From: Nitrospiraceae bacterium
Lineage (GTDB): Bacteria > Nitrospirota > Nitrospiria > Nitrospirales > Nitrospiraceae
Assembly (NCBI GenBank): GCA_035623075.1
Contig: DASPUC010000052.1
Coordinates: forward strand, 1 to 64,000
Reading direction: 5' to 3'
DNA: 64,000 bases
The position numbers and the translations under genes are program-made. The notes beneath the pieces are model-generated. The model was not told where the DNA came from. It was given only the letters and a program-made list of their open reading frames with translations, and did not search any database. Shown piece by piece: positions 16,778-29,554 of the stretch (positions are counted from its first letter, which is position 1; each line of letters starts with the position of its first letter).

Positions 16778-17509
16778 ATGCGAAAACTCGTGGTGGGGCT
16801 GATAGGCATAGGAATGGTAGGGCTTTCGTTTGTGTGGGCGTCGTCGGCGACAGCTGGAGATGAGGCAGAAACCGCCGAACTGTTGATTACATTGTTGAAA
16901 TCGGGACGCGCAGTCGTATCTGAGAATCAAGGACTGATCAACGATCCTTCCAAAGGCAATAAAGGGTTCACCGACGATTTCTTTGCGCAACAAGCCATGG
17001 AGAAATTCAAAGCTAAAACCAAAATTGATCTGGCTAAAGCGAATAATCTCCCGCAAGGCCCGCTGCTGAAGGCTCTTCTCGATTCGGGAAAAGAAGTTGT
17101 TGCAGAAGCGCAAATGGTAATCAACAAGCAGGGCATCGCATTCAAGGGATTCCTTCCGGCGGTCTTTGGCAGAAAAACCGGGGAGAAGTTTTATCAGAAA
17201 ACCGGTGTGAAACTGAGACTTACCGGGTTGGACTATCGGAACCCGGGCAACAAGCCGGATGACTTTGAACAGGAAGTCCTCCGGATGTTTGCTGACCCTC
17301 GTCATCCGAAAGGCCAACAATATGTGAAGACCACAATGCTGGCCGGGAAACCTGTTTTGCGCGTGATGGATCCGGAATATGCAGGAGCCACCTGCCTATC
17401 GTGTCACGGATCGCCCAAAGGGGAGCGCGACATCACAGGTATGAAGAAGGAAGGGTGGAAGGAAGGGGATCTGGCGGGAGCGATCAGTCTGACGCTTCCG
17501 ATCAAATAA
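16778..17509 (+). CDS. Periplasmic c-type haem protein, DUF3365 (Tll0287-like) family
   Basis: The protein has 243 residues with an N-terminal signal peptide (residues 1-26, cleaved near ATAGDEA). The C-terminal part has one CLSCH haem c site (near residue 207) in the context AGATCLSCHGSP. DUF3365 domains are found in redox or ligand sensors fused to kinases or chemoreceptors; here the domain is free-standing. A strong AAGGAGGAAGG site precedes the ATG. It lies 60 bp before the CheY-like gene, suggesting that it feeds a periplasmic signal to the following MCP. Its ligand is unknown; redox state, NO or CO would fit the family. Confidence 0.85.
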   Translation: MRKLVVGLIGIGMVGLSFVWASSATAGDEAETAELLITLLKSGRAVVSENQGLINDPSKGNKGFTDDFFAQQAMEKFKAKTKIDLAKANNLPQGPLLKALLDSGKEVVAEAQMVINKQGIAFKGFLPAVFGRKTGEKFYQKTGVKLRLTGLDYRNPGNKPDDFEQEVLRMFADPRHPKGQQYVKTTMLAGKPVLRVMDPEYAGATCLSCHGSPKGERDITGMKKEGWKEGDLAGAISLTLPIK

Positions 17510-17568
17510 ATAACAGAACACTACATAGTTTCCTTACAACATCAATAATCATCAGGAGGACACCGGAC

Positions 17569-17931
17569 ATGAGCAAGATTCTAGTCGTCGACGATTCATA
17601 TGCAGAATTGCAGATGATCGAGGGCTATCTGAAAGGAGCGAGCCACACAGTCGTTTCCTTTCCCAATACGGAGAAACTCGAGGATAAGGTCGTTGCTGAA
17701 AAGCCTGACCTGATCGTCATGGATGTTGTGATGCCGGGACGCAATGGTTTTCAGGCCTGTCGTGATCTTAAGAATGACGATCGAACAAAAAACGTACCGA
17801 TCGTGCTATGTACGTCCAAGGGCAACGAAAGCGATAAGTTCTGGGGACAACAGCAAGGGGCGAACGGTTATGTGACAAAACCCTTTAAGGCAGAAGATTT
17901 GCTTGCCGCAGTCAAGCGCGCCTTAGGCTGA
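17569..17931 (+). CDS. CheY-like response regulator (PilG/PilH type)
   Basis: The protein has 120 residues and is a single receiver domain. It begins MSKILVVDDSYAELQ (acidic pair DD), has the phospho-acceptor in VMDVVMPGRNG (about D52), the Thr/Ser switch in VLCTSKG and the Lys in YVTKPFKAEDL. No output domain follows. A very good AGGAGGACACC site precedes the ATG. The gene order receiver, CheW, MCP, CheA copies the start of type IV pilus (Pil-Chp) clusters, and this gene has the PilG/PilH place. Confidence 0.92.
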   Translation: MSKILVVDDSYAELQMIEGYLKGASHTVVSFPNTEKLEDKVVAEKPDLIVMDVVMPGRNGFQACRDLKNDDRTKNVPIVLCTSKGNESDKFWGQQQGANGYVTKPFKAEDLLAAVKRALG

Positions 17932-17960: not shown

Positions 17961-18455
17961 ATGGACCATCAACAGGAACTCACAGCGCAGCGGTTGTTAG
18001 AGACGGACCACCAACCGACGGGAAGGAACGCCTCCCGTATGTGCCTCATCAGCCTGGGTGGTGAATTGTTCGCGATGGACCTCGGCCACGTGAGTGAGGT
18101 TTTTGAAGTCGACTCGATCACGCCGGTTCCCGGAGCCCCACCATCACTCGTTGGTGTCGCCAATCTTCGAGGAACGGTCATTCCGTTGGCCGATCTACGT
18201 CCCTCGTTGGGACTGTCGGCAACGGATTCGTCGCTCAAGTACGCCGTGGTCGTGCGACATGGGAATCAACAGATCGGTATTCTCGTGGACACAGTACCTG
18301 AGATCAGGACAGTCCGACAGGATGAATTTCTTGCTGCACCGGCGCAAGGATCTGCGAACGCGCAACCATTGGTCTCCGCTCTGTTGCGTGTCGAAGAGCG
18401 AATGGGTGGGGTGATGGAAGTCCCACGCTTATTGACCACAGTGGGGTTGGGGTAA
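17961..18455 (+). CDS. CheW-like coupling protein (PilI type)
   Basis: The protein has 164 residues. A CheW domain spans about residues 24-160, with CLISLGGELFAMDLGHVSEVF, then TPVPGAPPSLVGVANLRGTVIPLADLR, the canonical CheW core. It couples the MCP to the CheA hybrid kinase in the cytoplasmic array. It starts 30 bp after the receiver gene. The downstream gap of 105 bp contains a ribosome site for the MCP but no obvious terminator. Confidence 0.9.
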   Translation: MDHQQELTAQRLLETDHQPTGRNASRMCLISLGGELFAMDLGHVSEVFEVDSITPVPGAPPSLVGVANLRGTVIPLADLRPSLGLSATDSSLKYAVVVRHGNQQIGILVDTVPEIRTVRQDEFLAAPAQGSANAQPLVSALLRVEERMGGVMEVPRLLTTVGLG

Positions 18456-18560: not shown

Positions 18561-20459
18561 ATGGCTAAGGCAGATTCTAGGATCGAGTCCAAGGGATCAC
18601 ACTTCAAGGGGAGATTTTATAATCTCAATACCAGGACGAAGCTGATTTCAAGCTTCGGTGTTGTCAGTCTCATCATCCTCGTCATGTCGAGCGTCGGTGT
18701 GTTGACGCTTCGTCAGTTGAGCTCTCAGTCACAAACGGTCTACACGGACTATACGGTCATGCTGGCAGAATTCGCTGATATGGGGACCGCACTGACGACC
18801 CATCACCAAGTTTTAACCAGCATGGCCACCATCACGCGGCAAGCGGACTTCGCCGCCGAGGTTGCTAGATTACCGCAGTATCGGACGAAAGCGAAAAAGG
18901 TTCTTGCCGACTACGAAGCCACTGAGTTTCGAGTCTCTCGTTCGGGTCGCGACGAAGCAAAGGACTATGCGCTTCTCAAGTCGGCCCTGCAACAGTACTT
19001 TCAGGAGGCTGATGGCGCCTTGAGCGCCATGGCCGACAGCTTCGACAAATCACTGACCGCGGAACAGGCTGAAAACATGCGAGGTCTCGGTGTCTTGGCG
19101 TTAACAGTGAATTTGCAACCGACATTCGACAAGACCGTTAAGTATCATAGTCAACAGATCTTGGATATGCAGGATGTCGCCAAAGATCTGAACGACGATG
19201 CACAAAAGGTTTCTGAGAATGGAACGCTCATTCTTATTGGTGGCGGGTTCATCGCCGTTGTACTCGGACTCGGCATCGGTTATTGGATGGCAGGCTTCTT
19301 TTCAAAAGGCCTGACACACATTGCTCAAGTTGCATCGCAGGCCGCTGCGGGCAACTATCAGGCCCGTGCCAAGGTTTCTACAAAAGACGAACTCGGTCAG
19401 ATGGCTACTTCGTTCAATGCCATGTTGGATCGTATTACCGCGCTTGTGACATCGGAAGAAGAGCGCGACCTGATGCAAAAGCGTCTCATGAATTTCTTGG
19501 TTTTGGTGTCGGATGTCGGTAAGGGCGACTTGACGAAGCGCGGCGAGGTGACGGCTGATATGTTCGGGAACTTGGCAGACGGATTCAACCTCATGATTCA
19601 GCGGTTCGGCCAACTGCTAAAACAAGTTCGAGAGGCTGCGGAAAGGGTCAATAAATCAGCCGGGACATTGAGAGAAAGCGCGGGTCAGATGGCTGGTACA
19701 GCAAAACATCAGGCCGATGAATCGGTCAAGACGCTGGGCGCGGTCGAGCAACTCGCGACGTCGATGCGTCAGGTCGCGGAAACAGCCGGCGCATCCTCAG
19801 AATCAGCCAAGCAAGTGTTGCAAGCCACCGAGCGCGGTCGCGTGGCCGTGCAAGAAACTGTGCAAGACATGCAGAGCATCCGGGCCGCGGTGCAACGGAT
19901 GTCTAAACAGGTCAAGGCACTCGGCGATCGGTCGTTGGAAATTTCGCAAATCGTGTCGACGATTCGTGACATCGCCAATCAAACGAACCTGCTCGCGCTG
20001 AACGCCGCCATTGAGGCGGCCGGCGCAGGTGAAGCCGGGGCACGATTCGCGGTCGTCGCCGATCAGGTCAGAAAACTGGCTGAAAGCTCAACGCAGGCGA
20101 CACGTGAAATCGCCGATCTTGTGAAAGTCATCCAAACCGAGACCCAGGATGCGGTCGTAGCGATGGAACATGAAACACAGGCCGTGGAAGCTGGGTCGGC
20201 CTCGGCACTCCGTACGGGCGACGTGTTTAACGAAATTTCAACAATCGCACAGCGATCTTCCGAGCTGGCCCAAATCATTGCGAGTTCCGCTGCGAACCAG
20301 ACGGCATCGACAGACCAAGTGGGCCGCTCGATTAAGGATTTCACCGGCGGCGCAGTTGCCACACAGAAAGCAACGGATGCTGCCCGAGTGACCGTCGAAG
20401 ACATGGCCAAGCTTGCGGAAGGTCTAACGTCATCGGTGTCGCAGTTCAAACTGGCCTAG
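18561..20459 (+). CDS. Methyl-accepting chemotaxis protein (PilJ-like receptor)
   Basis: The protein has 632 residues. TM1 lies near residues 33-53 ([17 protein letters not shown]), followed by a periplasmic four-helix-type sensor of about 170 residues, TM2 near 222-245 ([20 protein letters not shown]), HAMP near 247-300, a second HAMP-like stretch around 310-355, and a signalling coiled coil with the hairpin tip near 471-505 ([18 protein letters not shown]). The tip differs slightly from the canonical AIEAARAGE. A GAAGGAGG site precedes the ATG. The periplasmic sensor would be exposed to the same compartment as the haem protein encoded two genes upstream. Confidence 0.93.
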
Positions 20460-20508: not shown

Positions 20509-23500
20509 ATGAGCTCTGAGCTGGACCGACAGGCCCTCATCGACATCTTTGTCACCGAAGCCTCGGAAGCGATGGCAGCCCTCACGTCCGCGCTGAATCC
20601 AAGCGACGGATCGATCCCACAACCCCAGCAACTTCAAGAACAGTACATGTGGGCCCACAAAATTCGTGGGGCGTCCGCTTTATATGGATTCAACGGACTT
20701 GCCGTATTGGGCGCCCTCCTTGAGAGCACCCTCGAACAGGCATCCTCCATTGATGAAGGGATATGGCCGAAAGTCGTGGGAGCTTTGCGAGGGATGGTGG
20801 AAACGTTTCAAGCTCAGTTAACGGCGATTAGGAATGGGGGAAACGAAGACACAGCTGCCTGCGAACATTGGCGAACCGAGACTGACGGATTCCTCCCACA
20901 ATCCTCCGAGGTAGCGTCGTCGGCACCGTCGTTTGGGCGATTGTCACAAGATTACCTGGTTCCTACCATCGACCCGGACGTCCTTTCATATTTCTCTCCA
21001 GAGGCCGACGAATATCTACACGCCATGGAATCGTTCCTTCAAAGACTCCAGGAGAATGCCAACGACCCTGACAATATTCAGACCCTCGTCCGAACCGCTC
21101 ATACGCTCAAAGGCTCAGCAAAAACCATCGGGTTCCACGCGATCGGCGATATTGCTCATCCGATCGAAGACTGCATGGTCGCCGTACGTGAAGGACGTCT
21201 TGCCGTAACGTCGGATCTCGTAGGCGCGATTCATCAAGCGGTGGCGGTTATCCGCCTCCTGATGAAGCGAGATCCGGCGAGAGTCGCGCAGCTTGAGCAA
21301 GATGTGCCGCATGTCACCCAGACCTTGGAACGGCTGCGTGATGGCAAGCCTGTCGACGCGACCCACTCGGTCGCCTTGGAGATGGCACCAGTAACTCAAG
21401 TGGCGACGGCCGTGATGGATCCTGCTTCCGTGCCTGAGCAGAGTGCTGAGCAAAGCGACGCGGATATCGTACGGCTGACCGACGCCTATTTGCTGCCTCA
21501 CCTGGATCCCGAAGTGCTGTCCTACTTTTCACCGGAGGCTCAAGAATATCTGGAATCTTTAGAGGCGCAGCTGCTCCGCCTTGAGAAAGAGCCTCAGAAC
21601 CCTGAACTGGTTAACCAGCTGTTCCGAACCGCGCACACCCTCAAGGGGTCTGCCTATACAGTCGGTTTCCAATCAATTGGCGATCTAACGCACTATGTCG
21701 AAGACTTTATGGGATCGGTGCGCGATGGGCGAGTGAAAATTCTTCCTGGTCATGCTGATGTGCTGCTACGAGCGGTCGACGTGGTTCGATTGCTGTTGCG
21801 GCGCGATCCCATGCTGCTCGGTACCGTTCGACAACGTTTCAGCGCCTCCATGGCTGAATTGAAGCGTCTCGAGAATCCCACGGCAATGGAAATTGCGCCC
21901 ATGGCGCCGGTGTCACAGTCGGGCATGGCCTCTGCCGATGCGGAGAACACCAACCAACAAGATGCCGATGCGTCCAAAACGAATGAGGCCAGAGCAGCTG
22001 ATGCGAAAACTGGAGAAGAGCGTGAGGTAATTCGCGTCAGCCGTGACCGGTTGGAGCGATTACTCAACCTGGTTGGTGAGCTGGTCATCGGTCGAGGCCG
22101 GCTCGAACAGCGGCTCTATGTCCTGGAACAACTGTCGCAGCAAGTGTTGGGTTGTAAAAATCGACTGGTGGATTCGGTTCGTTCTTTTGAGGACAAACAC
22201 ACTTTTACCTTCCAAGCGGCTCCCTCCGGACCCAACAATGCTCCGACAACGGCGGCCTTCACCGGTCTGAGCGATTTCGGCACTCTCGAGCTCGACAAAT
22301 ACGATGACTTTAATATCCTGGCCCGTCGTATCAGCGAAGTGACGGCAGACATCACCGAATCGATGACTCAGTTGAGCGGGTCGATCCGGCGCTCTCACGA
22401 AGATATGAGCCAATTGCAGCAACTCACGCTGAGTATGCGGGATGAAATTGCTCGTGCCCGCATGGTGCCGGTTGGAACCCCCTTTACACGATTTCGTCGT
22501 GCGACCAGAGAAATGGCCAGGGCAACCGGCAAGGAAGTCTCCTTGGTGACCTCCGGTGAGCACACCGAAGTCGATACCGGCGTCGTTGAACGGTTGGTCG
22601 ATCCTTTGATTCATTTAGTCCGGAATGCCGTCTCTCATGGGATCGAACCAGCGGCGGTTCGAATAGCAAAAGGAAAACCAGCGGCTGGGACAATCTATTT
22701 GCACGCCGCTCATCGCGGAAGCTCCGTGCTCATTGAAGTAGAAGATGATGGTGCCGGTCTTGATATCGGAAAGATTCGTGCCAAAGCAATCGAACGAGGA
22801 CTCGTCCGTGCCGATGTCGCCAAGACTTTGCCTGAAGCGGAGGTCATTAAGTTTATCTTCATGCCGGGCTTCTCGACGGCCGACCAAATCGGCGATCAGG
22901 CTGGACGAGGCGTCGGCATGGACGTGGTGAAACGTGTCATTGAAAGCATGAATGGGCATATCGACGTTGAATCGATTCGCGGCGTCGGGACGAAATTCAC
23001 GCTGCATCTTCCACTCACCCTCTTGATCGCTACCGCGCTGATGGTCCGCGAGGGCGGTGACCGATATGCGATTCCGCTCCCGAGCGTTCGCGAGGTCACC
23101 ATGGCGACGACCGGATCATTGCAACGGATGGTGGACCGAACAGTCCTGCATCTCGGCGATGAAGCCATTGAGGTGCATCCTCTGCAGGAGTTGCTGCATG
23201 GAAGCGGCGGGATTATTGAGAATGGGAAGCCGATCGTGATCGTGCGAACGGGGATCGGTCCATTTGGACTGGCTGTGGACGAATTGCTCGGGCGACAGGA
23301 AATTGTCATCAAGCCGATCGGATCATTGAAAACATTAAAGCGGTCCTATTTCAGCGGTGCAACCATCGACCCGGAAGGCCGTGTGATTCTTGTGTTGGAT
23401 CCCGCGCGTGTCGTCATACGCGAAGCCCAGCCGGTAGAGGGCTTGCCTGAATCATCCGAGACGGCGCTCATTCCGGATTCGTCAGTTCCTCAAGATGGCG

Positions 23501-23907
23501 CACAGTCTGAACAGAGCGGGGATCAGCCGATTCTCCTGATCGATGATTCATTGAGCATTAGAAAATTTGTCGGTCGGATGCTGGAATCAGCCGGATATCG
23601 AGTCGATACAGCGGTTGACGGGGAAGAAGGGCTGCGCAAGGCATCGACGCACTCGTATCGATTGATTCTCACCGATTTGGAGATGCCCAAGCTGAACGGT
23701 TATGAAGTCATCCAGGCTTTGCGGAGTCGTCCTCAGACTCAAAAGACGCCCATTATTGTCATGACAACTCGAGCTGGGGATAAACACCGGCAAATGGCCA
23801 TCAGCATCGGTGCCAGCTCTTATATTGCCAAACCTGTTGAAGAGCGGGCACTCATTCAGGAAATCGAGCGTTGGATTGGCCGAGAATCCGCTGTCCGCAG
23901 CGTGTAG
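20509..23907 (+). CDS. CheA-type hybrid histidine kinase with three Hpt domains and a C-terminal receiver
   Basis: The protein has 1132 residues. Three Hpt domains lie at the N-terminus: His50 in AHKIRGASALYGF, His198 in RTAHTLKGSA and His376 in the same motif. Hpt2 and Hpt3 also share the preceding block (DPDVLSYFSPEADEYL against DPEVLSYFSPEAQEYL), a clear internal duplication. Then come the dimerisation helices (VIRVSRDRLERLLNLVGELV, about 505), the ATPase (LVRNAVSHGIE; GRGVGMDVVKRV; GTKFTLHLPLTLL), a CheW-like P5 domain and a receiver (LLIDDSLSIRKF, LTDLEMPKLNG). The architecture is close to PilL/ChpA and PixL. It phosphorylates the CheY-like proteins of the cluster. Confidence 0.94.
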   Translation: MSSELDRQALIDIFVTEASEAMAALTSALNPSDGSIPQPQQLQEQYMWAHKIRGASALYGFNGLAVLGALLESTLEQASSIDEGIWPKVVGALRGMVETFQAQLTAIRNGGNEDTAACEHWRTETDGFLPQSSEVASSAPSFGRLSQDYLVPTIDPDVLSYFSPEADEYLHAMESFLQRLQENANDPDNIQTLVRTAHTLKGSAKTIGFHAIGDIAHPIEDCMVAVREGRLAVTSDLVGAIHQAVAVIRLLMKRDPARVAQLEQDVPHVTQTLERLRDGKPVDATHSVALEMAPVTQVATAVMDPASVPEQSAEQSDADIVRLTDAYLLPHLDPEVLSYFSPEAQEYLESLEAQLLRLEKEPQNPELVNQLFRTAHTLKGSAYTVGFQSIGDLTHYVEDFMGSVRDGRVKILPGHADVLLRAVDVVRLLLRRDPMLLGTVRQRFSASMAELKRLENPTAMEIAPMAPVSQSGMASADAENTNQQDADASKTNEARAADAKTGEEREVIRVSRDRLERLLNLVGELVIGRGRLEQRLYVLEQLSQQVLGCKNRLVDSVRSFEDKHTFTFQAAPSGPNNAPTTAAFTGLSDFGTLELDKYDDFNILARRISEVTADITESMTQLSGSIRRSHEDMSQLQQLTLSMRDEIARARMVPVGTPFTRFRRATREMARATGKEVSLVTSGEHTEVDTGVVERLVDPLIHLVRNAVSHGIEPAAVRIAKGKPAAGTIYLHAAHRGSSVLIEVEDDGAGLDIGKIRAKAIERGLVRADVAKTLPEAEVIKFIFMPGFSTADQIGDQAGRGVGMDVVKRVIESMNGHIDVESIRGVGTKFTLHLPLTLLIATALMVREGGDRYAIPLPSVREVTMATTGSLQRMVDRTVLHLGDEAIEVHPLQELLHGSGGIIENGKPIVIVRTGIGPFGLAVDELLGRQEIVIKPIGSLKTLKRSYFSGATIDPEGRVILVLDPARVVIREAQPVEGLPESSETALIPDSSVPQDGAQSEQSGDQPILLIDDSLSIRKFVGRMLESAGYRVDTAVDGEEGLRKASTHSYRLILTDLEMPKLNGYEVIQALRSRPQTQKTPIIVMTTRAGDKHRQMAISIGASSYIAKPVEERALIQEIERWIGRESAVRSV

Positions 23908-23971: not shown

Positions 23972-24451
23972 ATGAGCCTGCGAGGCCACCACAGGACTGA
24001 GTCGACCCACGAGCAGGGAATCAGTTTCTTAGTCGTCCGGCTCGGAAAAACTCGCCTGGCGTTGCCGGCTGATGGCGTGCGAGGTGTGTTGACGCCTGCT
24101 GAGGCAGGAGTCGGCGACTCTATCAAAGCGGTCGGGATTACCTATCAACATCTCGACCTCGTCGGTTTTCTCATGATCTCGGCTGATTTCGATACGGCCG
24201 ATACACGCGTTGTTCTGTATTCAAACGGGCGATCACACGCAGCAGTGAGAGTCGAACAGGTCTTTGGTCTGACAGAAGTCGAACCGGTCCAATGTATTCC
24301 CCTGCCAGCCCATTTTCGAGCCGACGAGCGAACATGGTTTTCAGGAATGATTCTTCATGGGGAAGGGCTCGCGCTTATCGTAAACCCGACGTGGCTCCTC
24401 GGAGAAGTCGCCGAGGTCGTGTCTATGACGCCGGGCGGCATGTTGCGATAG
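23972..24451 (+). CDS. Divergent CheW-like protein
   Basis: The protein has 159 residues with a CheW-like fold: ISFLVVRLGKTRLALPADGVRGV at the N-terminus, then a beta-rich body and ALIVNPTWLLG where CheW proteins have their final strand and helix. The central NLRG-type motif is replaced by KAVGITYQHLDLVGFL, so contact with the kinase or receptor may differ. A short gap (64 bp) separates it from cheA. No strong ribosome site is seen. It may act as a coupling or adaptor protein for a subset of partners. Confidence 0.75.
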   Translation: MSLRGHHRTESTHEQGISFLVVRLGKTRLALPADGVRGVLTPAEAGVGDSIKAVGITYQHLDLVGFLMISADFDTADTRVVLYSNGRSHAAVRVEQVFGLTEVEPVQCIPLPAHFRADERTWFSGMILHGEGLALIVNPTWLLGEVAEVVSMTPGGMLR

Positions 24452-24483
24452 CATGCAGAGCGAACCGGTGGGAGTACCGCGTT

Positions 24484-24963
24484 ATGCTGAGAGCTTCGAA
24501 GCAACAAGAAAAGTCCGTCGATATCAAACGATCGTGGAATCTTCTCATTTTTTCGATCGGGGGGGAACGATTAGCTGTTCGCACAGATGATATTGGCGGG
24601 ATCGCCCACTGGACAGACAGTATTGCAGTGCCGAGTCGGACGCCATTTGTGCAGGCTATGCTCCGACGCGAGAAGGAGTTGATGCCGGTCTATGATCTGG
24701 CCGCGCGGTTGAATCGTACGTTGGTCGGAGATCCGTTGTTGTGCCTTGTCGCGAAGCATCTCGACGGGTTAATGGCAATCTGCATTGACGGCGACATGCC
24801 ATCGCTTCACACCATCGATGCTGGTGCGCTGCAGTTCAGCACCAGGGCGGATATTGAAACGATTGGGAGTTTTAACGACGGCGACGGGGAGATTCCGGTT
24901 GTCGCACTGCAGACGCTCGGGGGATCGAGCGCGAGCCATAATGGACACGCGACCGGGTTGTAA
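24484..24963 (+). CDS. Second divergent CheW-like protein
   Basis: The protein has 159 residues. The region LLIFSIGGERLAVRTDDIGGIAHW, IAVPSRTPFVQAMLRREKELMPVYDLAARL matches the start and middle of a CheW domain, including the loop followed by the PVYDL strand. The last third is less typical. I took ATG 24484, since the upstream part of the open frame overlaps the previous gene without coding sense. It lies 18 bp before the receiver/coiled-coil gene. As with its neighbour, the kinase-binding surface is poorly conserved. Confidence 0.75.
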   Translation: MLRASKQQEKSVDIKRSWNLLIFSIGGERLAVRTDDIGGIAHWTDSIAVPSRTPFVQAMLRREKELMPVYDLAARLNRTLVGDPLLCLVAKHLDGLMAICIDGDMPSLHTIDAGALQFSTRADIETIGSFNDGDGEIPVVALQTLGGSSASHNGHATGL

Positions 24964-24981: not shown

Positions 24982-26304
24982 ATGCCGAAGGTGCTAGTGG
25001 CCGACGACAGTATCGCCGTTCGGAAAGTCGCAGAACGGCTGCTGACGGAAGCTGGTTTGGGAGTAACCCTCGCCGCGAATGGCGAAGAAGCTCTCACATC
25101 TCTGGCAAAAGAATGTCCAGATTTGATCGTGTCCGACGTGATTATGCCGGACAAGAGCGGGTATGAGGTCTGCGCATTTGTCCGGTCACAAGCTGCATTT
25201 GCCGCGATTCCCGTCCTGCTAATTTCTGGAATCGTGAACGATGAGGTCACCAAACAAGCCGAATCGTGCCGTGCGGACGGAGTTCTGAAAAAGCCTTTTC
25301 AAGGAACTTCGCTCAAGGATCGCGTGCTCGAGCTTTTGGCCAAACGCGAAAGCCCGGAGGCTGCGCCGCCGAAGGCGAAGGAAGAAAAAGCTCAACCTCC
25401 AAGTTCGGCGAAAATATCTCCACACCTGTCCGATGAGCAATTGGTTGCCAATCGGCAGGCGGTTACCAAGCTCAAGCAGATAGAGGATGAATTGCAGACC
25501 GAGCGGCAACGAACGGCACAACTCTCTCGTCGAGTGGCGGAATTGGAGGGCCAAGGGGGGCGCCTGAAGGAGCTGGAGTCGGCTTTGGCATCAGAGCGAG
25601 ACCAGTCCGCCCAGTTTAAAAAGCACGCTGCCGATGCCGGAAATTTGGCGACCCGGGTGCAAGAATTGGAAGCGACCGTCACGGCGGAGCGGGAACGATC
25701 GGCTCAAGCCGCAAAAAAGCTGTCGGAAGCTGCCGGTCTATCCAGCCAAGTTCAGGAGCTGGAAGGCGCCTTGAAGAAAGAACGGGAGATGAATGGACAG
25801 TATGCCGTTCGGATAAGCGAGTTGCAAAAAGGTGCGGCCCGTGCTCAAGAGTTTGAAGCAGCTCTGAATGCTGAACGCCAAGCCGCAACGCAATTGGTAC
25901 AACAAATGACGGGGCTGGAGAAAACGGCCAACAAGGTTCAGGAGATGACCCAGCAATTGAACAAGGAACAACAACAGGTAGCGGAGCTGACCCGTCGATT
26001 GAACGAGACCGAACGAGCAGCAACGCGAGCTGCTGCGCTCGAACAAGAAATTACGGAAGCCAAACGTAAAATTGGCGAGCTTACCGCCCGTCTTGGCGAA
26101 TCTGAACGAACTCAAGTCAAGATTCAAGAATCGGAAACATTGCTACAAACGGAGCGGGATCGAAACGCTGTGCTGGCACGGCGAATTACTGAAGCAGAGC
26201 AAGCCACTATTCAAGCAACCAAGCGCTTTGAAGAGATGGCCAAAAAACTCGGCGAAATTGCCGGGTTGGCATCGCAGTTGGGGAATGGGACGCGGCGGTC
26301 CTGA
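24982..26304 (+). CDS. Receiver domain fused to a long coiled coil
   Basis: The protein has 440 residues. A receiver domain fills residues 1-118 (MPKVLVADDSIAVRKVAERL, then VSDVIMPDKSGYEVC with the phospho-Asp, and VLKKPFQGTSLKD with the conserved Lys). A Pro/Lys linker (about 120-145) leads into a roughly 290-residue heptad-rich helix full of Glu, Gln, Ala and Leu, with recurrent units such as LNKEQQQVAELTRRLNETE. No DNA-binding or enzymatic output is seen. The coil may be a structural output, for example organising or positioning the array. The ribosome site AAAGGAGAAAGG is good. Confidence 0.85.
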   Translation: MPKVLVADDSIAVRKVAERLLTEAGLGVTLAANGEEALTSLAKECPDLIVSDVIMPDKSGYEVCAFVRSQAAFAAIPVLLISGIVNDEVTKQAESCRADGVLKKPFQGTSLKDRVLELLAKRESPEAAPPKAKEEKAQPPSSAKISPHLSDEQLVANRQAVTKLKQIEDELQTERQRTAQLSRRVAELEGQGGRLKELESALASERDQSAQFKKHAADAGNLATRVQELEATVTAERERSAQAAKKLSEAAGLSSQVQELEGALKKEREMNGQYAVRISELQKGAARAQEFEAALNAERQAATQLVQQMTGLEKTANKVQEMTQQLNKEQQQVAELTRRLNETERAATRAAALEQEITEAKRKIGELTARLGESERTQVKIQESETLLQTERDRNAVLARRITEAEQATIQATKRFEEMAKKLGEIAGLASQLGNGTRRS

Positions 26305-26354: not shown

Positions 26355-27287
26355 ATGTCTGTCGATGCAGAAGACGATTTTCAGAAAGAGCTGGTTGACC
26401 TCTTCGTCCAAGAGGCCCACGAGTGGTTACAAAACATTCATGTGGCGCTGGACGAGTTGCAGCAGGGACCGGGTCCAGATCGTCACCAGAAGCTCATTGA
26501 GATTATTAGAGGTGGCGTAAACAATCTCGGCGGCTCAGCCGCCACAATCAATCTTCCAGTCGTCGAGCAAGCGAGTTTCGCCGCGCTCCCATTCATCGAC
26601 GCGATTCGAGACCCTCACAAGACCTTCTCCGTTCAGGATTTCCTTTCCCTGTGCAAACAACTCGGACAGATCCACACCGCATTGACGAAAACGACGGGTG
26701 TCTCGTTCGATGAGACAAGCGAGACGGCTGCTGAGACGATTCGACAGACGATCCCCATTCCAGACTTTGTTCAGGCGCTTCAACTTCTGCAACAGACGCA
26801 TCAGCTCTCCGGTCGCAACCTTGTACAGGGACTGATCGACCAGATGGAGAGCCAGCTCCGTGCTGGCGTCGATCAGGTCGACGTGCGAGCGCTGCACGAT
26901 TTCTTAGCCAGGGTTTCGGATGCGGAAGAGGCGTTTCTGCGAACAGTTCAACAATCCTTGCCCGCTCTGGCTGACAAGGTCCGCTCTCTTGTGACAGATG
27001 GGATTCCGGAGCGGCAGGATACGGAGATTATCGAGGCGTCGTTGCGCGATGTTTCTCAGCTTCGCACAGATGCGCAACAGGTCAATGCCGCTCCGGTGAT
27101 GATCTTTCTGACCGGTCTGCAGAGTCTGCTTTCCGTGGTCAATCAGCACCGGGTGCTCGTGACGGCAAAGCGGCTGGCAGCGGTTGAAGGGCGTGTTCGC
27201 TCGATGGCCGGAATCATTCAGCAATGGGTTGAGCTTGGGCAGGTTGAACGTGCGGCAATCAACAAACTCCTTCCGAACACACAGTAG
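26355..27287 (+). CDS. Hpt-like protein lacking the phospho-histidine
   Basis: The protein has 310 residues, all-helical by composition. Residues 8-90 look like an Hpt domain (FQKELVDLFVQEAHEWLQNI, then VNNLGGSAATINL), but the His of the usual AHTLKGSA motif is Asn. The C-terminal block (MIFLTGLQSLLSVVNQHRVL, then VELGQVERAAINKLLP) is closely matched in the next gene, so the two are paralogous over N- and C-terminal parts. The start ATG 26355 is likely, though a TTG at 26352 is adjacent. Its role may be to bind CheA or receivers without accepting phosphate. Confidence 0.7.
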   Translation: MSVDAEDDFQKELVDLFVQEAHEWLQNIHVALDELQQGPGPDRHQKLIEIIRGGVNNLGGSAATINLPVVEQASFAALPFIDAIRDPHKTFSVQDFLSLCKQLGQIHTALTKTTGVSFDETSETAAETIRQTIPIPDFVQALQLLQQTHQLSGRNLVQGLIDQMESQLRAGVDQVDVRALHDFLARVSDAEEAFLRTVQQSLPALADKVRSLVTDGIPERQDTEIIEASLRDVSQLRTDAQQVNAAPVMIFLTGLQSLLSVVNQHRVLVTAKRLAAVEGRVRSMAGIIQQWVELGQVERAAINKLLPNTQ

Positions 27288-27330
27288 CACTGGTGGAATG
27301 ATTCCGTGTAACGGACTCATCCCTTGACTT

Positions 27331-27345
27331 GTTCATGTGATGAAC
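27331..27345. promoter_or_regulatory. Short inverted repeat upstream of the HD-GYP gene
   Basis: GTTCAT and ATGAAC flank GTG in the 188 bp gap before the HD-GYP gene, directly after a TTGACT hexamer (27324-27329). This could be an operator at a secondary promoter, but no -10 box stands out. Weak evidence only. Confidence 0.2.
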
Positions 27346-27475
27346 GCATGCTGAAGTAAACGATACGACACGGAGGAGAATATACGCCACCGAGCACAAA
27401 CGGTTTTCCGTCATGGCAGGAATGAGGTGCCGAAGACAACGTTAATGAAGCATCACTTTTGATCGGGTCTATAGT

Positions 27476-29554
27476 GTGATCGACCAACATTCAACACAAT
27501 GGTATCAGAGCGCAGTCGAACGGCTGACGCAGGTTGCTGCAGAAATTCAGCGGCAGGACGTCCTCGATCTGAAGGGCGTGTCAGTGCTCGCGTCGAACAT
27601 CGTCGAGTCGCTTGGCAAGAGCGATCAATTGCTGGTCGAAGCCCTTGCCGGACCGAGCGGCCCACCACTTCTTACAAATCTGGTTAACGTCGGAATCCTG
27701 GCAACAAAGGTGGGAGTGGGGCTCGGCTATTACGGACGAGAACTAGAACGACTGGCTTTGGCTGGGCTTATGCACGACGTGGGCTTATTCGCTGTTCCGC
27801 AGTCTTTGGTCACCAAGTCTGGCCGTTTGACTCCTGAAGAGCGCATGCTGGTCGAACAACATCCAGAACTCGGGTACCAAGCGTTGCGCAAGCTCGGACC
27901 GACGCATGACTGGCTGGCCCAAGTCGTCCGCCAAGCCCACGAACGGTGGAACGGGCGAGGGTACCCTAACAAACTCAAAGGCCGCCAGATCACCGAGTTC
28001 GCTCAAATCATCGGTGTCGTGGACGTGTTTGACGCACTGGTCAGCCCGCGTCCGTATCGCCGACGTTTCTTTCCTCATGAGGCGGTACGCGAACTCATGG
28101 TGGTTGAGCGGACGGCGTTCCCGCGAGAAGTCATGAAGGCCTTGGTCGAACAACTCTCGGCGTATCCGATCGGTACGTCGGTTCGGCTCTCGACCGGTGA
28201 GTTGGGCACAGTAATTCGAGTCAATACACGCTATCCACTCCGCCCGGCCGTCATGATCAGGGAGACAGAACCGGAGGGCCTTGAATCACGACACGTTGAT
28301 CTGAGTACGTTACCGCTCGTAACGATCATTGAGACCGTGGAACCTCCCGATATCGCAAGACTTTCATTTCCGACACAGGCCAAAAAGACTGAGCCTATGG
28401 CATCGGTTTCGGATCAATTTTCATCCTTGCTGGAAAGTCTTGATGCAATAGCGAGCGCGATTCAGGGTGTGGTTGAGTCGGCCGGACCTGGCCGCCATGA
28501 AAGCGATAACTCTGCTCGAGATGAATCATCGCGAGCGCAGGGACGAACCGCTTCCCGAGAACTTGTCGATGCGTCTTTTGAAAAAGAAGTGGTCGGATTA
28601 TTTGCGCTCGAAGCGCATGAGTGGTTGGCGCAAATTCAGACGACGCTCAAAAAGTTGAGTGAAGGGGCCAACCAAACTGTTCGACCAAAGCTTTACGGGA
28701 TCATCCTCCAGGGAATCACCAATCTCGCGAAATCAGCCGCAACGGTTCAGTTATCGGCGATTGAGCAGATGGCGTCGAATCTCTTGCCAATCTTGCAGGA
28801 GGTCGGACGACAAGAGCCACGGGCAGCGGCTGCGGCACTGAACTCACTTCATGAAGGGCTGGCACGTATCAGCATGGCCGTTCATCGTTTGACCGGCGGG
28901 CAGGGAGACGAATATCCCGCACCAGTTCCTGTCAGTGAAGGGCCAGCAGTTGAACCTGCATCGTCCAGTTCACCGGCCAACCATGAAAAAGTGGCTGCAC
29001 CTCGGTCAGTGATCCAGGCATCGACGGCTGGTGGCCTCCCGCTTCTGACAGCTTTGCGGGAACTCCATCAGGCTAGGGCGAGGTCCGTCCAACCAACCAG
29101 AGACGTCTTGGAGGCCGTCATTCTCATGGCTGAACATGAGGGTGGCGATCTAGAAGCAACTTCAATTGATCGTATTCTCAATGAGTTAAACATCCTTGAT
29201 GAAGAGTTTGTTGAAGAAGTTCGAAAAAGGGTTCCTGTCATTATACGAGAGCTTCACAACTTGCGCAGTCAGGAAACAACCGATTTTGTGACCGCCACTC
29301 AACTTGACCCGATTGTGCGAGAGGTTGACACACTGCACGACCTGGCAAGCCGAGTTCAGGCCTCAATGATGACGATGTTTCTCCAAGGACTACAATCGTT
29401 CTTACTCGTGACAGCCTACAGAAAGGCATCAACGCTGCCGCAACGACTAGAAATGGTCGAAGCACGGATGCAGGCCCTCATTCCAATGGCAGAACAATGG
29501 GTCAACATTGGGCGGCTTGAGCGGGCCGCCATCAGCGAAATTCTGCCTGCCTAA
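27476..29554 (+). CDS. HD-GYP domain protein with C-terminal pseudo-Hpt region
   Basis: The protein has 692 residues with a GTG start at 27476. The HD-GYP domain spans about residues 65-215 (LMHDVGLF with H100/D101, EQHPELGYQ, QAHERWNGRGYP, VVDVFDAL). HD-GYP proteins hydrolyse c-di-GMP. Here the Lys after HDxG is Leu, the first His of the HHE motif is Ala (A154), and Asp before GxGYP is Asn, so catalysis may be altered. From about residue 365 a second part matches the preceding gene's protein; its Hpt-like motif reads ITNLAKSAATV with Thr in place of His. The likely role is a c-di-GMP output or scaffold of the chemosensory cluster. Confidence 0.85.
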   Translation: MIDQHSTQWYQSAVERLTQVAAEIQRQDVLDLKGVSVLASNIVESLGKSDQLLVEALAGPSGPPLLTNLVNVGILATKVGVGLGYYGRELERLALAGLMHDVGLFAVPQSLVTKSGRLTPEERMLVEQHPELGYQALRKLGPTHDWLAQVVRQAHERWNGRGYPNKLKGRQITEFAQIIGVVDVFDALVSPRPYRRRFFPHEAVRELMVVERTAFPREVMKALVEQLSAYPIGTSVRLSTGELGTVIRVNTRYPLRPAVMIRETEPEGLESRHVDLSTLPLVTIIETVEPPDIARLSFPTQAKKTEPMASVSDQFSSLLESLDAIASAIQGVVESAGPGRHESDNSARDESSRAQGRTASRELVDASFEKEVVGLFALEAHEWLAQIQTTLKKLSEGANQTVRPKLYGIILQGITNLAKSAATVQLSAIEQMASNLLPILQEVGRQEPRAAAAALNSLHEGLARISMAVHRLTGGQGDEYPAPVPVSEGPAVEPASSSSPANHEKVAAPRSVIQASTAGGLPLLTALRELHQARARSVQPTRDVLEAVILMAEHEGGDLEATSIDRILNELNILDEEFVEEVRKRVPVIIRELHNLRSQETTDFVTATQLDPIVREVDTLHDLASRVQASMMTMFLQGLQSFLLVTAYRKASTLPQRLEMVEARMQALIPMAEQWVNIGRLERAAISEILPA

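Follow-up and report, generated by a model that had tools for sequence, protein, structure and literature searches.

Two adjacent genes of the window (the whole stretch of DNA analyzed, 64,000 nucleotides) encode proteins, designated here A and B, that carry Hpt-type domains in which the phospho-histidine is replaced. We consider it somewhat better than an even chance (probability of approximately 0.55) that A and B serve as adaptors, without catalytic activity, in one CheA-based array, which most likely controls type IV pili, and that B is tied to c-di-GMP.

Both genes are intact open frames with the coordinates given in the initial annotation (Table 1). The whole length of A aligns to residues 364–691 of B with 29% identity (E = 1e-31), a similarity far above chance, and A and the C-terminal half of B are homologous by this comparison. 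The common blocks of two neighboring proteins that the initial annotation had pointed out were thus confirmed. A search of the genome for further relatives of A found none besides B.

Table 1. Features of the chemosensory gene cluster in the window
Feature	Position	Strand	Characteristics
CheY-like response regulator, REC only	17401..17931	+	Pfam Response_reg; conserved cluster position; likely true start about 17569 (relatives 120 aa)
CheW	17961..18455	+	Pfam CheW, E 3e-31
MCP receptor (4HB-HAMP-MCPsignal)	18561..20459	+	Pfam; sole MCP found in genome
CheA	20509..23907	+	Pfam; three His-bearing Hpt domains, kinase core, CheW and REC domains; sole CheA found in genome
CheW-like protein 1	23972..24451	+	Pfam CheW
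CheW-like protein 2	24292..24963	+	Pfam CheW; true start probably later, past end of CheW-like protein 1
REC domain + long coiled coil	24982..26304	+	Pfam Response_reg; adjoins A in every locus read
Protein A	26355..27287	+	310 aa from ATG; two tandem Hpt-like domains (second probable) without phospho-His
A, first pseudo-Hpt bundle	26361..26696	+	Residues 3-114; AlphaFold2 helices 3-36, 41-64, 68-83, 93-114; CheA P1 profile match E 6e-5
A, second Hpt-like bundle (probable)	26883..27269	+	Residues 177-305; helices 177-211, 219-242, 246-265, 271-305; weak Hpt profile match
Protein B	27476..29554	+	692 aa; degenerate HD-GYP fused to A-like tandem pseudo-Hpt
B, HD-GYP domain	27665..28108	+	phmmer to 4mcw, E 5.5e-21; alignment of 33 relatives; own-genome controls
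B, first pseudo-Hpt bundle	28541..28891	+	Residues 356-472
B, second Hpt-like bundle (probable)	29156..29542	+	Residues 561-689

Hpt-like domains of proteins A and B

The best match of a profile of 39 A orthologues among PDB sequences was the P1 domain of the Thermotoga CheA (1tqg, E = 6e-5), and the HTLKG site of CheA P1 aligned with the block F.KE.V.LF..EAHEWL...NL..SAAT of this profile. According to the analysis in hhalign, the family also matches the Hpt domains of the CheA proteins from the same clusters (98% probability, E = 5e-13). In the alignments to CheA P1 and to the CheA Hpt profile, the HTLKGSA motif of CheA corresponds to NNLGGSA in A and to TNLAKSA in B. As for the Pfam Hpt family (PF01627), A of the window scored 16.6 bits, which is below the cut-off of 24.6; Pfam Hpt was matched by 35 of the 39 orthologues at E values up to 1, and the relatives L050, L060, L058, L048, and L051 were above the cut-off. 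A search of NCBIfam with A gave no useful name, and no FimL model was matched.

3D modeling of A using the AlphaFold2 program (pLDDT 89) predicted two four-helix bundles, whose helices follow one another in the same order. Foldseek comparison of this model indicated similarity with CheA P1 (1tqg, TM 0.77 to the target, rmsd 2.7); other matches were CheA3 P1 in complex with CheY6 and plant HPts. Small helical bundles usually give weak Foldseek E-values, and that for 1tqg was 0.13; the Hpt assignment is carried by the sequence evidence. By profile similarity and predicted structure, the first common block is a true Hpt fold. The structure prediction that the initial annotation had proposed as a check accordingly gave an Hpt-type four-helix bundle, with a residue other than His at the aligned position.

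GPCR-like Foldseek matches were dismissed (rmsd near 20). A generic four-helix-bundle artefact was also considered and ruled out; helices of the MCP ligand domain, used as the hhalign control, matched nothing.

The histidine site of the first domain is occupied by Asn56 in A (codon 26520–26522) and by Thr415 in B (codon 28718–28720), i.e., by the residues that the initial annotation had assigned to it. Among 69 aligned members of the family, this site contains Thr in 57, Ser in 6, Asn in 4, and Ala in 2; three more divergent members have Ser or Ala. Histidine at the first site was found in none of the 72 family members, which represent two families of the order, and therefore the loss is old and has been maintained. 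It is a property of the whole family and not of the A/B pair alone. The earlier suggestion that phosphotransfer was lost in the two proteins thus stands for the canonical site, and it had missed this family-wide scope.

The lysine of HTLKG is retained in only one first domain and replaced in the other 68, whereas the packing residues L58, S61, and A62 are invariant in all 69 aligned members; thus, the family has lost the residues of catalysis and kept those of packing. The first site of the relative L166 reads TNLKGSAAT, which differs from HTLKGSA only in the replaced H and T, and this sequence links the family motif to the CheA motif. A and B are Hpt proteins by fold and descent and not phosphotransfer Hpt proteins, as the defining histidine is absent from them.

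The residue after the lost histidine is Asn in 56 of the 69 members and Ser in 13; one entire genus has Ser in its A proteins. Helical-bundle phosphatases exist, and the Asn could provide an amide for dephosphorylation of a response regulator, as in CheX/CheZ or DHp phosphatases, in which case A would end the signal. The presence of Ser instead in the 13 members speaks against such a phosphatase, as does the fact that the typical acid/amide pair was not recognized, and we regard it as improbable.

Profile comparison and the model make it probable that the C-terminal block common to both proteins is another degenerate Hpt-like domain, hence two such domains per protein. The initial annotation had rightly noted the block itself and had not identified the domain. 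Analysis in hhalign showed weak similarity of this domain with Hpt (E = 0.001–0.005, probability 7–17%) and similarity with the first domain at E = 6e-4. In the L060 orthologue, two stretches were matched by Pfam Hpt, and the better one is the second domain; in addition, BRIC2, a synthetic repeat protein whose sequence resembles CheA P1, aligns to the second domain of A. In most members of the family the second domain is recognized weakly.

The acceptor-equivalent residue of the second domain is Ser234 in A (codon 27054–27056) and Asp618 in B (codon 29327–29329). Histidine at the aligned site was found in 2 of the 69 second domains, namely, in A of L060 (L060:9527-10567) and in B of L050 (L050:10921-14004), which might point to a cryptic Hpt, i.e., to phosphorylation of the second domain or of another residue and to participation of one bundle in a relay. 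In the other 67 second domains the site contains Ala, Glu, Asp, Ser, Gln, and other residues, among them the Ser and Asp of the window, and a cryptic Hpt seems very improbable to us.

HD-GYP domain of protein B

The initial annotation did not mention that B starts with an HD-GYP domain. This domain was detected with Pfam HD_5 (E = 9e-30) and with the PmGH structure 4mcw (phmmer, E = 5.5e-21). Its H100-D101 dyad, H129, H155, G162-Y163-P164, and D183 are retained, and the HD dyad and the GYP motif are invariant in 33 relatives. Among the residues that we take to be the metal ligands of PmGH, in the numbering presumed for that protein, the equivalents of H221, D222, H250, H277, and D305 are kept in B, and those of E185, H189 (Asn68 instead), and H276 (Ala154 instead) are absent. 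The motifs of B are HDVGL and AHERWNGRGYP versus HDxGK and HHExxDGxGYP, so that the full metal-ligand set is not present. Both Asn68 and the pair Ala154-His155 are unchanged throughout the alignment of 33 relatives, and the four other HD-GYP domains of the same genome, taken as controls from a six-frame alignment, have His at both sites. To judge from these residues, the domain looks like a dead c-di-GMP enzyme, and loss of c-di-GMP hydrolysis by B is likely. In several lineages, the HD-GYP protein in the position of B is unfused, and in others it is fused to the pseudo-Hpt module.

Gene cluster, distribution and history of the family

Genes A and B belong to a chemosensory cluster with the conserved order CheY-CheW-MCP-CheA-CheW-CheW-REC/coiled-coil-A-[AAA ATPase]-B. 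The three Hpt domains of the CheA have the motifs AHKIRGAS, AHTLKGSA, and AHTLKGSA, with His kept in all of them. The listed CheW ORFs overlap within 23972-24963, and the second probably starts after its mechanical ORF start. Most of the 46 other loci compared, which come from two families, show the same gene order as far as the sequence read at each of them extends; the first CheW of the cluster was not followed in this comparison. As exceptions, no CheW was recognized in L054-L056 and no MCP or CheW in L163, and L039 (G184) has the REC/coiled-coil, A, ATPase, and B genes with no CheA or MCP recognized beside A.

Several loci have features of their own. In L039 (G184) the array was either moved or lost. 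L054, L055, and L056 contain a divergent form of the cluster: CheA is shorter, no gene for an HD-GYP protein was found, and A is strongly altered, the motif of its first domain being lost. Many relatives from several genera have an ExeA-like AAA ATPase (AAA_22; TIGR03015 below its cut-off) between A and B, e.g., L033:10515-11480; this gene is missing in the window. In L050, the AAA ATPase is fused to the N-terminus of B (1027 aa), and the REC/coiled-coil gene is tandemly duplicated (L050:7923-9731; 270 and 323 aa).

Protein A was found in 128 of 197 genomes of the order, in two families. A scan of the contigs of named genomes with an alignment query revealed 112 loci with an A homologue; a single-protein query of the same contigs found none. 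Among the matches listed, nearly all bear the title Nitrospira or Nitrospirota, with N. moscoviensis and Ca. N. defluvii among them. One contig, titled Candidatus Omnitrophota (L127), has an A homologue 42% identical to A of the window; this contig is possibly mis-binned Nitrospira. Within one family (f1), A occurs together with a CheA of any type in 119 genomes and alone in 2, CheA occurs alone in 4, and neither was found in 11 (Fisher test, 2e-11, with related genomes that are not independent).

In a tree of 72 sequences, the A and B labels had to change twice, and a single change was also compatible with the tree. The same genus order recurs within the main A clade and the main B clade, which is most simply explained by one duplication and vertical descent after it; the outer lineages have A only. 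Most simply, B arose from A by a single duplication and then followed the species tree, in agreement with the initial annotation, where the two proteins were described as duplicated.

The loss of the catalytic residue might also be explained by decay of duplicated Hpt genes after loss of function, and in many genomes of genus g2 the module copy of B is gone and the HD-GYP protein stays alone in its place. Such relics would hardly be expected to have open frames, positions that are near-invariant across two families, a preserved gene order, and strong co-occurrence with CheA. This reading is already disfavored by the conservation, and we give it almost no credence.

Proposed function and comparison with known systems

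A search of the genome revealed one CheA and one MCP, two PilT-family proteins above the cut-off, and no match to flagellin. As for CheR, none was found in the genome above the cut-off, with one weak match below it. Considering the single MCP, the lack of CheR above the cut-off, and the 99.9% completeness of the genome, the array may work without methylation. No pilus genes were recognized within the cluster, and type IV pili are the most likely output of the array judging from the genome content (single CheA and MCP, PilT, no detected flagellin).

In P. aeruginosa, FimL carries a pair of Hpt-like domains, each with Gln at its acceptor site; full cAMP synthesis depends on this protein, which promotes its pathway instead of blocking it (PMC3019171). 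Together with ChpA, it recruits PilG to the pole (PMC10519157). By analogy with FimL, the pseudo-Hpt bundles of A and B may still offer a face that binds receivers or CheA. A would hold a response regulator at the array without passing of phosphate, as FimL holds PilG at the pole, and the adjacent REC/coiled-coil protein or CheY is the most likely receiver. B would use the same face to place its HD-GYP domain at the array; this domain would act as a receptor for c-di-GMP or as an interaction module rather than as an active phosphodiesterase, and B would thereby tie pilus control to c-di-GMP.

Alternatively, the pseudo-Hpt bundles could be decoys or competitive inhibitors that occupy the faces of the CheA kinase domain or of receivers and damp phosphorylation, as does plant AHP6, a pseudo-HPt inhibitor with Asn at the His position. 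A and B share with AHP6 the Hpt fold with its histidine replaced, and the plant protein provides a precedent; however, the AHP6 type is a single-domain inhibitor of the cytokinin pathway, whereas A and B have tandem domains. A scaffold accounts better than a titrating inhibitor for the tandem arrangement of the domains, the HD-GYP fusion, and the fixed one-to-one synteny, and the promoting action of FimL also argues against inhibition, which makes a decoy unlikely. The initial annotation had suggested that the two proteins may act toward CheA or the receiver proteins either as decoys or as docking partners. This was reasonable, and of the two roles the published behavior of FimL favors docking.

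Beyond the adaptor reading, it is possible, although doubtful, that dead Hpt modules in tandem serve quite generally as plugs for CheA and receivers and form a phosphate-free signaling layer. In Nitrospira, a dead HD-GYP domain would have been joined to one copy of the module (with an AAA ATPase as well in one relative), coupling c-di-GMP binding and pilus assembly to the array purely by docking.

The family offers material for studying how the Hpt fold works without His, as in FimL: the module occurs in about 130 genomes and has undergone an internal duplication as well as natural fusions and losses. With its single array, the genome of the window is also easier to read, as a flagellar system is apparently absent. 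Nitrospira are major nitrite oxidizers whose surface behavior is little studied, and the cluster gives direct access to the control of their pili. In a literature search on Nitrospira chemosensing with HD-GYP or CheA, nothing relevant was found.

With CheA P1 and other Hpt domains (PF01627; 1tqg, 2ld6, 3kyi), A and B share the fold, the arrangement of helices, and the L..SA packing motif that follows the active site, but have Thr, Ser, Asn, or Ala in their family instead of the phospho-His. HD-GYP domains with roles beyond hydrolysis, similar to that proposed for B, are represented by RpfG, which acts on pilus motors via a GYP-dependent protein complex (PMC3749722), by the inactive variant PA2572 (PMC3774798), and by DvhD, in which the HD and HHE motifs are also changed and which was solved with c-di-GMP bound (9rbz). 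RpfG carries a REC domain, whereas the HD-GYP domain of B is joined to tandem pseudo-Hpt domains. We know of no fusion of RpfG, PA2572, or DvhD to such domains.

A and B are of the FimL-like kind that is already known, and we are not aware of an earlier description of this gene arrangement or of an HD-GYP-fused paralogue of FimL. As in FimL, both Hpt-like domains of A and B lack His (Gln in FimL), with the second domain being weaker; the likeness is one of anatomy. FimL works with a multi-Hpt CheA, controls type IV pili, and holds a receiver at the pole, and a parallel role is proposed here for A and B. The systems differ in size (310 aa in A, whereas FimL matches 563 aa of ChpA), and A is encoded inside the CheA cluster, unlike FimL.

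As for the array as a whole, a multi-Hpt CheA with REC, MCP, CheWs, and CheY in one cluster, together with a pilus motor in the genome, place it with the Pil-Chp and Tfp-class clusters, with which the window shares these components and the pilus-type genome. In contrast to these clusters, the genome of the window has no CheR above the cut-off, and its cluster ends with the REC/coiled-coil gene and A and B, which in many relatives are separated by the AAA ATPase.
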